Shown in pieces: positions 2,355-8,241 of a stretch of 11,530 nucleotides of DNA (positions are counted from its first letter, which is position 1; each line of letters starts with the position of its first letter). The translations under genes and the position numbers were made by a program. Origin of the DNA: Methanobacteriota archaeon (GTDB taxonomy: Archaea > Thermoplasmatota > Thermoplasmata > Methanomassiliicoccales > Methanomethylophilaceae); NCBI GenBank assembly GCA_029574055.1, contig JAKQBQ010000013.1:1-11530 (forward strand). The letters run 5' to 3'. The notes beneath the pieces were generated by a model. That model was given only the letters and a program-made list of their open reading frames with translations, was not told the origin of the DNA and searched no databases.

Positions 2355-3659
2355 TCAATACCTTTCCATTTCCGATTTCATATATTCTCTGAGAAGGCAG
2401 GTGGCATAGTTGCCTTTCGGAAGGTAGAATCTCATCTCATACCCTCCTTCAACGACGTTGTGGGAAAGGTCTCCCACCGGGCAGAGTATCTCCCTCCTGC
2501 TTCCCTTGGAGCTGCAGTGCGGAAGGCCGGGGACGATGAAGTCTTTCTTTTCGATCCCCTCGCTTTCTATGACTGATCTTTCTATCTCTCCCATTTCCCC
2601 GTCGGGGATGATGCTTTCCGATCCGAATAAAGAGATGGTAACGAACGCTCTCCCGGACCTCACCTGCCTGGCGACAAGATCGATGTTGCCGGACGTTGTG
2701 GTTATTGGGTTCTCATGCAGCGGGATCCTGTTGGCATCCAGCGGGATCACCACGTCGCCCAATACGGGGGCGTTCAGGGGAAGCCCCTTTGCCATGCGCC
2801 CGCTGAGCATCCGGTTGAAAAGATATGACTGATAGGCGTGTACGAACATCATCTGGAGGTTCTTCGGGAGCTTTTCGACCGCTCCCCTCCAGTCTCCCGG
2901 GGACGAGACGATGTGCTCCACCATTATCTTCTCGTAGGACATGGAGTTCGGCATTTCATTCAAGAGAGAAGACCAATCCTCCCCTTCTGACAAAGACCTT
3001 CTGGCTATAGCCGTTTCCTCATCCTCGAACAGGGACGGGTCGGAGACGTAGCTCCTTACAGCTTCCTCGATATTCCCTCTGATCAGGTATTCCCCGACCT
3101 TGTGGGTGATAGGGCGTATCGTTCCGAACCGCTGTACCCCGAAATAGTTGGGGAATCCCCCCGCCTCCTTTATGACGGAGGAGACGGAATCGAGGATCGG
3201 GGGTATCCCGCTTTCCGGGACGCCGCATTCGGTGACCTTTATCGCAAACGAGTTGCCTCTCAGGTCGCCGATCTGTATGCCCCTCTTTGCGGTATACATC
3301 CCGCTGATCTCCACATCCTTGAGGGCGATATTCTTCACTCGGTCAATAGGGCATTCGAAGGACATCAGCTGCGTCGTGACCGCCCTCTTATCCTTTGTCC
3401 CGGCAAAACCCACCCTTTCGCGCGAGATGCCCAACCCCCTCGATATCAATCTCACGAGGCGGTTCGTCTCCCAATTCCTGCTGGTGACCTCTGCGATGAC
3501 GAATTTCCCACCCTCCGCAGGCTCCGGCCTGTTGGACATCTCCTTAACAACAAAATCCTCAGGCTCTTTCTTCAGGCGCCCTCCGGTGCCTTCGATATCG
3601 CTCAGATAGAAGGACATGCCGACGCCCGCTTCGGCGGTGCGGCATTCTCTGTAGGTCAT
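2355..3659 (-). CDS. truD: tRNA pseudouridine synthase D (TruD/Pus7 family)
   Basis: This enzyme isomerises a uridine to pseudouridine in tRNA; the family's classic target is U13 of the D-arm. The protein has 434 residues, the size usual in archaea and longer than bacterial TruD. The three family motifs are in order: GFAGTKDKRAVTTQ (84-97) with the catalytic Asp at 90, NYFGVQRFG (171-179), and YQSYLFNR (276-283). The conserved C-terminal LPKGNYAT...LLREYM block (413-427) is also present. The segment between motifs II and III holds the TRUD insertion domain. The start at 3659 overlaps the rpoL stop as ATGA, which favours translational coupling. An internal ATG at residue 15, just before FYLSD, is the only serious alternative and sits where many homologues begin. 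The stop (TGA) abuts the TGA of the convergent TPR gene with no base between. The call is very secure. Confidence 0.96.
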   Translation of the reverse strand: MTYRECRTAEAGVGMSFYLSDIEGTGGRLKKEPEDFVVKEMSNRPEPAEGGKFVIAEVTSRNWETNRLVRLISRGLGISRERVGFAGTKDKRAVTTQLMSFECPIDRVKNIALKDVEISGMYTAKRGIQIGDLRGNSFAIKVTECGVPESGIPPILDSVSSVIKEAGGFPNYFGVQRFGTIRPITHKVGEYLIRGNIEEAVRSYVSDPSLFEDEETAIARRSLSEGEDWSSLLNEMPNSMSYEKIMVEHIVSSPGDWRGAVEKLPKNLQMMFVHAYQSYLFNRMLSGRMAKGLPLNAPVLGDVVIPLDANRIPLHENPITTTSGNIDLVARQVRSGRAFVTISLFGSESIIPDGEMGEIERSVIESEGIEKKDFIVPGLPHCSSKGSRREILCPVGDLSHNVVEGGYEMRFYLPKGNYATCLLREYMKSEMERY

Positions 3660-3910
3660 TGCTTTACCGCTGAGAAATAAGTGGATACCGTCTTCGCGGC
3701 CTTCTTCACCGCGTCCTCAGGCTTCCCTTTGCTGACCTCTACCACCAGCACAGGGTCGGCCAGCTCCGGGTGATAGTTGATGTACCTCACCTGGATGACG
3801 GTCTTGTCGTCGTTGAGCGCTTTGATAAGGGGTTCCACAAGCGTAGGGTTCTCGTCCCTGAATCCGAGGGTTATCGATCTACCGGTCCTTTCGACAGTAT
3901 AGACTTCCAT
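3656..3910 (-). CDS. rpoL: DNA-directed RNA polymerase subunit L (Rpo11)
   Basis: This is the archaeal counterpart of eukaryotic Rpb11 and of the N-terminal domain of bacterial alpha. It pairs with Rpo3 (subunit D) to start RNA polymerase assembly. The protein has 84 residues, slightly shorter than many (about 90-95). The family core is visible: the DENPTLVEPLIKAL helix (18-31), then a strand and turn with YNYHPELADP-like residues (YINYHPELADPVLVVEV, 43-59), then an amphipathic C-terminal helix. The N-terminal MEVYTVERT strand also fits. The ATG at 3908-3910 has no Shine-Dalgarno, but a TATA box sits about 25 bases upstream, which fits a leaderless transcript. It is first in a two-gene unit with truD and overlaps it by four bases. 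Confidence 0.92.
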   Translation of the reverse strand: MEVYTVERTGRSITLGFRDENPTLVEPLIKALNDDKTVIQVRYINYHPELADPVLVVEVSKGKPEDAVKKAAKTVSTYFSAVKQ

Positions 3911-3939: not shown

Positions 3940-4030
3940 CTTTCGTAACTTCGGAGTGAGAGGTACGACGCTATAGACAGCATAGTTCTTTTAAACTCTC
4001 ACAGTATTGAATGCTAACGAAAGAAATAAC

Positions 4031-4040
4031 TTATATATTA
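4031..4040 (+). promoter_or_regulatory. TATA box of the MarR-ABC exporter operon
   Basis: TTATATATTA is a near-ideal archaeal TATA element. It is preceded by the purine-rich AAGAAATAAC, which can serve as the TFB recognition element (BRE). The expected transcription start is near 4062-4065, giving a leader of roughly 15 bases that still contains the Shine-Dalgarno at 4067-4072. It faces away from the rpoL promoter, about 95 bases distant. Confidence 0.75.
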
Positions 4041-4042
4041 GA

Positions 4043-4061
4043 TTGCTAATAGCATTAGCAA
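4043..4061. promoter_or_regulatory. Probable MarR operator (inverted repeat)
   Basis: TTGCTAAT and ATTAGCAA form a perfect 8-base inverted repeat around a 3-base AGC spacer. It lies directly between the TATA box and the expected transcription start, where a bound dimer would block TFB or polymerase. MarR proteins bind palindromes of this size and commonly repress their own operons. A further half-site TGCTAA occurs at 4012-4017, 32 bases upstream of the equivalent half of the palindrome, or about three helical turns. The palindrome is seen directly; its use by the adjacent MarR protein is inferred. Confidence 0.7.
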
Positions 4062-4066
4062 CTAAC

Positions 4067-4072
4067 AGAGGT
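4067..4072 (+). promoter_or_regulatory. Shine-Dalgarno of the MarR gene
   Basis: AGAGGT lies six bases upstream of the ATG at 4079 and fits the 3' end of archaeal 16S rRNA. It fixes the MarR start at 4079, upstream of the in-frame TAG. This argues that translation is meant to begin before that TAG and not at a weak internal TTG (4244). Confidence 0.65.
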
Positions 4073-4078
4073 AGCTAA

Positions 4079-4504
4079 ATGGACTACGATGAGCTTGTGA
4101 AGGAACTCTCTGTGAAAATGCAGTCCGCCCGCTCAGCAGGTCTGAGGAAACAGATCTACGACAGCAATCAAGGCGAGCTCTATGTCCTTTTTAGTATCAG
4201 GGACAGATAGGGCACGACCGTCCCCGGCGATATCAGCAGCGCTTTGAACATCAGTTCCGCGCGCGTCGCCGCAGCCCTGAACAGCCTCGAGGAGAAAGAG
4301 CTGATCACCCGCAGGATCAACGTCGATGACAGGCGCAAGATCATTGTGGAGCTTACGCCCAAAGGCGTAGAATATCTGGAAGAGCGGCAGAGGGAACACT
4401 TTGAGAGGATAAAGAGCATCCTTGTGCAGCTTGGGGAGAAGGACGCGAAGGAATTGGTCCGTATACTCGGGCGCATCGCGGAGGTGCTCGACAAACGCGA
4501 ATGA
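4079..4504 (+). CDS. MarR-family repressor with in-frame UAG (possible pyrrolysine)
   Basis: The frame starts at an ATG with a good Shine-Dalgarno and ends at a TGA (4502-4504). It contains a single TAG at codon 44 (4208-4210). Counting that codon as an amino acid gives 141 residues, typical for MarR. Before the TAG come the dimerisation helix and the GELYVLFSIRDR helix. After it come GTTVPGDISSALNISSARVA (helix-turn-helix), the NSLEEKELITRR recognition region, the wing VDDRRKIIVELTPKG with the family-defining DRR, and a long C-terminal helix. The TAG falls in the loop before the helix-turn-helix, a tolerant place. Its likely role is to repress the operon with the two ABC exporter genes behind it, through the palindrome at 4043-4061. 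Stop at codon 44 would leave a 43-residue fragment without a DNA-binding domain. Alternatives are a recent nonsense mutation (pseudogene) or a sequencing error. MarR identity is sure; read-through is an inference. Confidence 0.8.
4208..4210 (+). other. In-frame TAG codon, candidate pyrrolysine codon
   Basis: TAG is the only in-frame stop between the MarR start and its terminal TGA. It sits between Arg43 and Gly45 of the MarR frame. The bases on either side can form a 5-bp stem (GGGAC 4200-4204 with GTCCC 4220-4224) that leaves the TAG in a 15-base loop. In pyrrolysine-using archaea UAG is decoded by tRNA-Pyl (pylT/pylS). Whether this genome has the pyl genes cannot be seen here. Confidence 0.5.
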
Positions 4505-4627: not shown

Positions 4628-6406
4628 ATGGGAAACATTCTGAAATTCAAAAGCATATTCAAATATCTCGGGCCGAAGGATTGGGCGCTCATCGGGGTGA
4701 TCCTGGTCTTTGTGATCATCCAGGTCTATTTCAATCTGAAGCTGCCCGAGTACATGGCAACCATCACGACGCTCGTGCAGACGCCTGGCAGCGAGATGAG
4801 CGAGATATGGATGAACGGGGGGTACATGATCCTATGCGCTCTCGGAAGCCTCGCGGCCGCCGTCATGGCGGGATTCTTCGCATCGAGGATGGCTTCAGCA
4901 TTCTCGCAAAGGCTCAGGAGCCTGCAGTTCAATAAGGTTGACTCGTTCTCAATGAGCGAGATCAATAAGTTTTCGATAGCAAGCCTGATCACCCGCTCTA
5001 CGAACGACGTTACGCAGGTGCAGATGGCATTCACGATGGGACTGCAGATAGTCACCATGGCGCCGATACTCGCGGTGTGGGCGTTCTTCAAGATCTACGG
5101 GAAGGGGTTCGAATGGACGCTTGCGACAGGCGTTGCCATGGTCTGCATCTTTGTGCTGTTCATCGTGATACTGGTATTCGTCATACCCAAATTCAAGAAG
5201 ATGCAGGTCCTGACCGACAACATCAACGATGTAGCCAGGGAGAACCTCACCGGGCTTCCCGTCGTACGCGCATACAACGCGGAGGACTACCAGGAGGCCA
5301 AGTTCGAGAAGGCCAACGAGGAGCTGACCAGCACCCAGCTGTACACCACCCGCGCGATGGCGACGCTGATGCCGCTGATAAGCCTCATAATGAACGTGTT
5401 GCTGATAGCCATATACTGGATAGGCGCGATACTCATCAACAACTCCGGCGCGGACGGGGCGTTGGAGACCTTCGCGAACATGATAGTGTTCTCCGCATAT
5501 GCCATGCAGATAATGATGGCGGTCATGATGATCATGATCATGTTCATAATGCTGCCCCGCGCACAGGTGTCGGCAAGGCGTATAAACGAAGTGATCAACA
5601 CCGAATCCTCCATTAAGGACGGAACGGTGACCGAAACCGACCCCAACATAAGAGGAGAGGTGGAGTTCAAGAATGTGAGCTTCAAATACCCCGGCGCGGC
5701 AGATTATGTGATCAAAGATGTGAGCTTCTCTGTCGAGCAGGGGGAGACGATAGCGTTCATAGGGTCCACCGGGAGCGGGAAGAGCACGCTGATAAACCTC
5801 GTCCCAAGGTTCTACGATGCCACCGAAGGCACGATCCTGATCAACGGGGTGGATGTCCGCGAATACAAGCTTGAGGCGCTTTACAACAAGATAGGGTACA
5901 TCCCGCAGAAAAGCGTGCTTTTCAGCGGGACTGTCTCCTCCAACGTCGCATTCGGCGAGAACGCCGGCAGGAAAGCCACGGAAGAAGACATCAGGGATGC
6001 GGTGAGGATCGCCCAGGGGAAGGATTTCGTCGAGAATATGGAAAACACTTACGATGCGGACATTGCGCGCGGGGGCACCAATGTGTCAGGCGGGCAGAAA
6101 CAGCGCCTGTCGATCGCCCGCGCCGTGTGCAAGAAGCCTGAGATATACATCTTCGACGACAGCTTCTCGGCGCTCGATTACAAGACAGACAGGGTCCTCA
6201 GGACAGCGCTCAGGAAGGAGACCAAAGGGGTCACGAGCATGATCGTGGCACAGCGCATAGGCACCATCATGGATGCCGATAAGATCGTCGTCCTCAACGA
6301 AGGGAAAGTAGAGGGGATCGGGAAGCATAAGGACCTCCTCAAAACGTGCGGAGTGTACAGAGAGATAGCGATGTCGCAGCTGAGCGAAGAGGAGTTGGCA
6401 ATATGA
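4628..6406 (+). CDS. ABC exporter half-transporter, degenerate-site subunit
   Basis: A 592-residue membrane-domain plus ATPase half-transporter of the multidrug/lipid exporter class. Six hydrophobic segments lie at about 21-38, 66-86, 138-156, 164-187, 248-271 and 284-309. The ATPase has Walker A GSTGSGKST (379-387), Q-loop Gln427, signature VSGGQ (486-490) and Walker B IYIFDD (506-511). Two key residues are changed: Asp511 replaces the catalytic Glu, and Gln542 replaces the H-loop His (AQR for AHR). In heterodimers such as TM287/288, LmrCD and BmrCD the first subunit carries just these changes, so one ATP site turns over poorly. CAAGG at 4616-4620 is a modest Shine-Dalgarno. It lies 123 bases behind the MarR gene, with no obvious terminator or strong promoter between, and overlaps the next gene by ATGA. 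The substrate cannot be told from sequence. Confidence 0.93.
   Translation: MGNILKFKSIFKYLGPKDWALIGVILVFVIIQVYFNLKLPEYMATITTLVQTPGSEMSEIWMNGGYMILCALGSLAAAVMAGFFASRMASAFSQRLRSLQFNKVDSFSMSEINKFSIASLITRSTNDVTQVQMAFTMGLQIVTMAPILAVWAFFKIYGKGFEWTLATGVAMVCIFVLFIVILVFVIPKFKKMQVLTDNINDVARENLTGLPVVRAYNAEDYQEAKFEKANEELTSTQLYTTRAMATLMPLISLIMNVLLIAIYWIGAILINNSGADGALETFANMIVFSAYAMQIMMAVMMIMIMFIMLPRAQVSARRINEVINTESSIKDGTVTETDPNIRGEVEFKNVSFKYPGAADYVIKDVSFSVEQGETIAFIGSTGSGKSTLINLVPRFYDATEGTILINGVDVREYKLEALYNKIGYIPQKSVLFSGTVSSNVAFGENAGRKATEEDIRDAVRIAQGKDFVENMENTYDADIARGGTNVSGGQKQRLSIARAVCKKPEIYIFDDSFSALDYKTDRVLRTALRKETKGVTSMIVAQRIGTIMDADKIVVLNEGKVEGIGKHKDLLKTCGVYREIAMSQLSEEELAI
6389..6394 (+). promoter_or_regulatory. 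Shine-Dalgarno fixing the second ABC gene start
   Basis: GAGGAG lies eight bases upstream of the ATG at 6403. It supports that ATG, which overlaps the preceding stop as ATGA, over the in-frame ATG at 6346. The 6346 start would add 19 residues of implausible composition read through the end of the upstream gene. Confidence 0.7.
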
Positions 6407-8241
6407 GCGAGGAAAGGCCGAGGCGGGACGGCCCTCCTCTGGGAGGACCATTCGGAGGAGTGGCCGAAAAGCCGAAGGAGTTCAAAAAGACCGGGATGAA
6501 GCTGATCCGGTACTGCAGGTCATTCATCCCTCTGATAATCATAGCTTTGGCGATGGCTGTAGGCGGGACCATCCTTCAGGTCATCAGCCCGGATTGGCTG
6601 AAGAATCTGACCGATGAGATAACCAACGCTCTCCCGGCGATCATGAGCGGGCTGCCCGGCGCCATCGACATGGATGTCATAATAGGCATTGTCATCGTGC
6701 TGATATGCTTCTATGTGATCTCTTCAATACTAACGTTCATCCAGAACTGGATCATGGCAACGGTCACGCAGAAGATATCCAAGAAGATGAGAACCGACAT
6801 ATCTCAAAAGATTAACCGCCTCCCCTTCAGCTACTTCAACAAGGGGAGCTACGGCGATGTCCTGAGCCGCATGACGAACGACGTCGACACTATAGGCATG
6901 ACGCTCAACCAGAGCATCACCACCCTGGTATCGGCGGCGGCGATGTTCATAGGCTCTCTGATAATGATGTTCTACACGGATTGGATAATGGCCCTTACAG
7001 CGATCGGGTCCAGCCTGCTGGGCTTCATGTCGATCTTCGTCATCATGAAGAAATCCCAGAAGTTCTTCGTCGCTCAGCAGAACGACCTCGGCAACGTGAA
7101 CGGCCATGTAGAAGAGACGTACACCGGGCACAACATCGTGAAGATATACAATGCCAGCAGGGAATTCAAGAAGAAATTCGAGGACATAAACCTCAGGCTT
7201 TACGAGAGCGGATGGAAGTCGCAGTTCTTCTCCGGCCTGATGATGCCGCTGATGTCGTTCATAGGCAACTTCGGATATGTGATGGTGTGCGTCGTCGGAG
7301 CGGTATTGGCCATGAGCGGAACGATCTCCTTCGGCGTCATAGTGGCGTTCATGATCTACGTCAGGTTATTCACGCAGCCCCTTTCGCAATTTGCGCAGGC
7401 CGCCACCAACCTGCAGAGGACGGCGGCCGCAGGCGAGCGCGTGTTCGAGTTCCTGGAGGAAAAGGAGCTGGAGGACGAGAGCCAGATGGTGAAGAGGATC
7501 TCCGATGTAAGGGGGGATGTGGAATTCAGGAACGTCAGGTTCGGATACACCCAGGACAGGGCGGTCATCCACAACTTCTCGGCAGAGGTGAAGGCAGGGC
7601 AGAAGGTGGCGATCGTGGGCCCCACCGGCGCCGGCAAGACCACCATCGTCAATCTTCTGATGAGGTTCTACGAGGTAGACAGCGGAGAGATACTGCTCGA
7701 CGGAGTCTCAACGAGAGAGATCCCCCGCGAGAACGTGCACGAGCAGTTCTGCATGGTGCTTCAGGATACCTGGCTGTTCAACGGCACCATAAAAGAGAAC
7801 ATCATCTATTCCAAAGAGGGAGTTTCCGATGAGGAGGTGGTCAATGCCTGCAAGACAGTGGGACTGCACCACTTCATACAGACGCTGCCGGACGGATACG
7901 ACACAGTGCTGAGCGACACGGCGAACCTGTCGGAGGGGCAGAAGCAGCTGATCACGATCGCACGTGCGATAATCAAGGATTCGCCGCTGCTGATACTGGA
8001 TGAGGCAACGAGCTCTGTGGACACACGCACCGAGCGCATTGTGCAGGATGCAATGAACGCCCTTACAAAAGAGAGGACATCTTTCATCATTGCGCACAGG
8101 CTGTCGACCATCAAGGATGCAGATAAGATATTGGTGATGAAGGACGGCGATATCGTGGAGAGCGGATCTCACACGGAGTTGCTGGCACAAGGGGGATTCT
8201 ACGCCGAGCTGTACAACAGCCAGTTCGAATTGGCAGCATGA
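6403..8241 (+). CDS. ABC exporter half-transporter, catalytic partner subunit
   Basis: A 612-residue half-exporter that should pair with the product of the preceding gene. A Gly/Pro-rich charged tail (about 1-30, including PPLGGPFGG) precedes the membrane domain. Hydrophobic segments follow at about 42-64, 90-116, 172-191, 195-215, 276-304 and 307-325. The ATPase has Walker A GPTGAGKTT (406-414), Q-loop Gln454, Walker B LLILDE (529-534) with the catalytic Glu534, and an intact H-loop His565 (AHRLST). The signature is LSEGQ (509-513), with Glu for the first Gly. That is the variant expected in the partner of a subunit with a dead catalytic Glu: its weak signature completes the inactive site. 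Reading continues from the first gene by a 4-base ATGA overlap, which helps equal production. A hairpin with flanking A/T runs follows the stop. Its tail and operon order (MarR-ABC-ABC) resemble Firmicutes exporters, so transfer from gut bacteria is possible but unproven. Confidence 0.94.
   Translation: MSEERPRRDGPPLGGPFGGVAEKPKEFKKTGMKLIRYCRSFIPLIIIALAMAVGGTILQVISPDWLKNLTDEITNALPAIMSGLPGAIDMDVIIGIVIVLICFYVISSILTFIQNWIMATVTQKISKKMRTDISQKINRLPFSYFNKGSYGDVLSRMTNDVDTIGMTLNQSITTLVSAAAMFIGSLIMMFYTDWIMALTAIGSSLLGFMSIFVIMKKSQKFFVAQQNDLGNVNGHVEETYTGHNIVKIYNASREFKKKFEDINLRLYESGWKSQFFSGLMMPLMSFIGNFGYVMVCVVGAVLAMSGTISFGVIVAFMIYVRLFTQPLSQFAQAATNLQRTAAAGERVFEFLEEKELEDESQMVKRISDVRGDVEFRNVRFGYTQDRAVIHNFSAEVKAGQKVAIVGPTGAGKTTIVNLLMRFYEVDSGEILLDGVSTREIPRENVHEQFCMVLQDTWLFNGTIKENIIYSKEGVSDEEVVNACKTVGLHHFIQTLPDGYDTVLSDTANLSEGQKQLITIARAIIKDSPLLILDEATSSVDTRTERIVQDAMNALTKERTSFIIAHRLSTIKDADKILVMKDGDIVESGSHTELLAQGGFYAELYNSQFELAA

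Follow-up and report, generated by a model that had tools for sequence, protein, structure and literature searches.

An in-frame UAG codon in a MarR-family regulator gene of a Candidatus Methanoplasma genome, a candidate site of pyrrolysine insertion

The MarR gene, its control region and its neighbours

The stretch of DNA analysed here (the ‘window’, 11,530 nucleotides) is contig C25 of a MAG of the Candidatus Methanoplasma genus, order Methanomassiliicoccales (1.1 Mb in 218 contigs, 69% complete and 2.94% contaminated). On its plus strand, at positions 4079-4504, lies a gene for a MarR-family regulator that begins with ATG, ends with TGA and comprises 141 codons, one of which (codon 44, positions 4208-4210) is an in-frame TAG, the proposed pyrrolysine codon. 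A preliminary description, made from the sequence alone, had drawn a MarR frame broken only by this TAG and preceded by a promoter, a palindromic operator and a Shine-Dalgarno sequence, and each of these elements could be located again. In a Pfam search, PF01047 (MarR) spans the stop at residues 31-87, with 40 bits against a cut-off of 24.6. A structure model in which lysine was substituted at position 44 (mean pLDDT 86.7) agrees with that match in placing the product among the MarR winged-helix proteins; its best matches in the PDB are MarR-type regulators, several with DNA, at TM values of about 0.5-0.7.

Codon 44 falls, in that model, within a predicted loop between helices 29-42 and 49-56. 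This is a variable loop ahead of the winged-helix recognition part, where a pyrrolysine residue would probably be functionally neutral, and nothing in the evidence gathered points to a special role for residue 44. Around the TAG, no Rfam family scored above threshold, and one match lay below it.

The control region can be read directly upstream. A TATA-box-like CTTATATA lies at 4030-4037 on the plus strand, its eight letters recur upstream in 11 of 15 MarR orthologues, and the promoter looks, from its letters, like the archaeal TATA type. Just 5' of the MarR start is the candidate operator TTGCTAATAGCATTAGCAA (4043-4061, no strand assigned), a perfect palindrome and the only such site in the genome bin even when up to 2 mismatches are allowed. 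Its core, CTAATNNNRTTAG, is complete in 14 of the 15 orthologues, a score attained by one of 2000 shuffled upstream regions. In these 14 it starts 28-37 bases 5' of the aligned start; in the remaining one it is matched at 12 of 13 positions. At the level of sequence, then, the gene carries the palindromic operator near its own promoter that is looked for in the MarR family. A Shine-Dalgarno-like AGAGGT follows at 4067-4072, also on the plus strand.

Downstream, and again on the plus strand, lie two ABC exporter halves that resemble MsbA but score under the cut-off of that family. The first (4628-6406), the likely target of MarR, adjoins the regulator gene in all 15 orthologous loci; the second occupies 6406-8241, with an approximate start (its frame is open from 6346). 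Elsewhere in the window, at 3656-3910 on the minus strand, an 84-residue RNA polymerase subunit L-like protein, under the NCBIfam cut-offs, is encoded next to truD.

Pyrrolysine genes and the use of TAG in the genome

The preliminary description had named a lack of pyl genes as a refutation of the pyrrolysine codon; pylT, pylS and pylBCD are all present in the MAG. On contig C99 (L054), a cluster of mtbB, mttB and two mtmB genes, each with an in-frame TAG, is followed by pylT, pylS, pylB and pylC. PylS, PylB and PylC score over their cut-offs, PylC being cut by the contig end, as is a PylD piece on contig C9 that also scores over its cut-off. The gene for tRNA-Pyl(cta), 5' of pylS, was called by ARAGORN at relaxed settings (it was missed at default settings) and aligns with those of four relatives. 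Each of the frames for MtbB (dimeth_PyL), MttB (trimeth_pyl) and the two copies of MtmB aligns end to end with its own family, across the in-frame TAG.

A survey of stop codons covered 85 contigs and 549,853 bases, or about half of the MAG. It held 3622 stops with at least 30 open codons on either side (1957 TGA, 904 TAA and 761 TAG, the last amounting to 21%), and at 50 of these (29 TGA, 14 TAA and 7 TAG) one and the same frame has coding signal before and after the stop. The seven with TAG comprise mtbB, mttB, the two mtmB genes, the methionyl-tRNA synthetase (MetRS) gene, MarR and one open reading frame without relatives in the genus. A start codon lies within 12 codons in 32 of the 43 TGA and TAA cases, as it would where one gene ends before the next; this criterion is weak, since a nearby start is also found in four of the seven TAG cases. 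A Pfam comparison covered seven of the 43, of which four proved to be two genes in a row and one a PurM gene; a low rate of true TGA or TAA lesions may exist outside the conserved gene set.

As a terminator, TAG is rare. Among 472 coding stretches with at least 80 open codons before the stop, nine end in TAG, five of which are read-through cases; once these five are set apart, TAG terminates 4 of 467, compared with its 21% share of the open-frame stops, and two of those four lie on a foreign-looking contig, C75. A second PurM gene, with an in-frame TGA, is on the same contig (C75, L117; 3420-4463, minus strand). Its product is 39% identical to that of the intact PurM gene on C176 and 35-39% identical to 14 other near-full-length copies in the genus, and on these low identities the copy was taken as foreign or redundant and set aside. 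Contig C75 itself is probably foreign to the genome. On contig C113 (L154), a frame at 5497-6381 has one TAG (C113:5704) with coding signal on both sides; it has no homologue in 16 other genomes of the genus and is therefore uninformative.

The conserved genes of the genome served as a control. From 400 kb of another genome of the genus (G048), 341 reference genes were taken, and at a threshold of at least 45% 131 of them were matched in the contigs covered, over 35,760 aligned codons. The sole stop deep in the interior of these alignments is the TAG of MetRS; six other stops (2 TAA, 3 TGA and 1 TAG) within 20 residues of the N-terminal end of the alignment were left out, probably reflecting overlong reference frames.

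That MetRS gene lies on contig C41 (L083), positions 3-2216 of the minus strand, with its TAG at 963, and is the only full MetRS found in the bin: of ten MetRS-like matches, one is over the metG cut-off, and it carries the one TAG. In twelve other genomes of the genus a MetRS exceeds the cut-off, and all of these are free of stops. The stop, at residue 418, falls within the match to the catalytic domain (residues 37-428) and ahead of the anticodon and tRNA-binding domains; serine takes its place in three relatives that are 81-83% identical. As the bin is 69% complete, a second copy could lie in the missing part, but no genome of the genus showed two. MetRS is an essential gene and seems to need UAG to be read. 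If so, translation itself would depend on pyrrolysine in this lineage, a dependence that would go some way to account for the pyl genes being indispensable.

Within the half of the MAG covered, MarR and MetRS are the only two non-canonical in-frame TAGs with homology support. If the type of stop were random and the TAG share 21-33%, the chance of both being TAG would be about 0.04-0.11. The weight of this pair is modest; MetRS, which is needed for growth, weighs more.

Orthologues and the reading of codon 44

Seventeen genomes of the genus were searched for MarR, yielding 16 other orthologue-grade places at 47-60% identity, 15 of which were aligned. In none of the 15 is codon 44 a stop, and the listing shows no stop for the 16th; the TAG is limited to one genome, and the sharing of UAG seen in the methyltransferases is found in 0 of 15 orthologues. 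Such sharing is not required of neutral pyrrolysine cases. At codon 44 the orthologues have Q three times (CAG twice and CAA once), H and G three times each, R twice, and A, C, N and K once each, in a column that is not fully certain because two of them are gapped just ahead of it. The gene itself is dispensable, with no match in 6 of the 17 genomes, two of which are 93% and 97% complete.

All 31 positions that are invariant across the 15 orthologues are kept in the TAG-bearing MarR, 27 of them past the TAG, in line with the earlier remark that conserved residues continue beyond it. Mean identity 3' of the TAG is 0.616, inside the range of the intact orthologues (0.561-0.632); 5' of the TAG it is 0.367, below that of all 15 (0.404-0.496), and this lower value could point to relaxed constraint. 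The alignment contains no further lesion or decay past the TAG, although a very recent loss would look alike. Orthologues broken at different places, which the preliminary description had named as the mark of a pseudogene, were sought as well; none was found in the family searched, a set that holds no very close strain. Two orthologues (G042 and G036) were considered as possible breaks and rejected, since their TGA at codon 138 lies at the usual end point of the family.

Protein databases show the gene in truncated form. The entry for the MarR of the window is an 86-residue tail, as gene callers treat TAG as a stop and split genes of this kind. A second record, from a contig of 1710 bases, begins with the same codon, the TTG at 4244, and matches the tail without a difference over its 86 residues; such a start would be expected if the frame were closed upstream there too, though the two may share a sample and the second is a protein record alone. 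Among 54 protein matches there is no full-length MarR of the same species with a sense codon (the best full-length matches are 59-60% identical), and a scan of genome contigs for MarR returned only 6 distant loci.

The presence of the pyl genes and the lack of orthologues broken elsewhere make pyrrolysine decoding the best reading of codon 44, short of proof, and to that extent the earlier proposal of a pyrrolysine-containing MarR is partly borne out. It is probable that a working MarR autorepressor receives pyrrolysine at its UAG, a permissive and probably neutral site, and is made as the full 141-residue protein. Pyrrolysine supplied by PylBCD would be attached by PylS to the product of pylT, and the charged pyrrolysyl-tRNA would read the UAG in the MarR mRNA. 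The resulting MarR-type autorepressor, with whatever ligand it may bind, would control the adjacent pair of ABC exporter genes. The TAG may go back, through a single substitution, to a CAG such as two relatives have, and the change would have arisen in a lineage where the use of UAG as a terminator had nearly ceased.

The chief rival is a recent nonsense mutation that inactivated the repressor and derepressed the exporter, with no time yet for decay. The restriction of the TAG to one genome, the absence of a MarR match from six of the 17, the lower identity of the N-terminal part and the general knowledge that exporter repressors are often lost all speak for it. Yet such a mutation would have had to strike in a genome with pyrrolysine machinery, with TAG inside four methyltransferase genes and the one MetRS found, and with 131 conserved genes free of any TAA or TGA deep inside; the operator core and 31 of 31 invariant residues are kept, and a chance nonsense codon would be TAG about one time in five to three. 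On balance a nonsense mutation appears unlikely. A sequencing or assembly error, for which the draft state of the MAG, its incompleteness and its contamination might argue, is very improbable, given the same clean set of conserved genes and the second protein record (for what a possibly shared sample is worth) that begins at the same TTG.

It is also highly doubtful that the reading of UAG sets the amount of repressor, and hence the output of the exporter pair, so that MarR would be a transcription factor responsive to the supply of pyrrolysine. A regulatory gate, in which partial termination at UAG would tie repressor amount to pyrrolysine supply and exporter expression to methylamine metabolism, is extremely unlikely: termination there would leave a product of 43 residues, short of most of the MarR domain (residues 31-87), so that output must follow the efficiency of UAG reading, but codon 44 is variable, its TAG is not common to the orthologues, and the TAG in MetRS would imply that decoding is steady.

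Comparison with known amber-containing genes

With pyrrolysine decoding as the preferred reading, a transcription regulator joins MetRS among the genes that apparently depend on UAG decoding in the Methanomassiliicoccales. Archaea in which all TAG codons stand for pyrrolysine have reportedly been described of late, and pyrrolysine is said to have entered a tRNA-His guanylyltransferase by neutral evolution. To go by the title of the latter report (Heinemann 2009), the evolutionary route would be the same as for MarR, while the recipient is an enzyme and not a regulator.

Two parallels come from the same order. In Ca. Methanomethylophilus alvus, TAG serves as a terminator in 1.6% of cases, the putative pyrrolysine proteins in Table 7 of that paper include an Rv0623-like transcription factor, and half of the homologues of its TAG genes in two other genomes lack the TAG (PMC4153887; Borrel 2014). 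The present MAG resembles M. alvus in its in-frame TAGs and its low use of TAG as a terminator, and differs in belonging to another genus and in its MarR, a family that the table does not list (PMC4153887). The ISO4-H5 genome has 46 amber-containing genes, adenylate kinase among them (PMC5011839); here too the order is the same and genes other than methyltransferases, including housekeeping genes, are involved, but the relevant passage names no regulator among them (PMC5011839).

The preliminary description had regarded a DNA-binding regulator as an unusual recipient, which is only partly right, TetR-type and Rv0623-like regulators being already in print. An in-frame amber codon occurs in MA2902, a TetR-family regulator of Methanosarcina acetivorans that has a relative in M. 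barkeri (PMC1914089, PMC3639795), and the presence of pyrrolysine in this protein is called unclear (PMC1914089). It is like MarR in being a DNA-binding regulator with such a codon, and unlike it in being a TetR protein whose amber occurs in two species (PMC1914089, PMC3639795). No pyrrolysine-containing MarR appears, by title or abstract opening, among the literature matches listed. Regulators with an in-frame UAG are thus already in print, and the MarR gene described here is a further example rather than a new kind.
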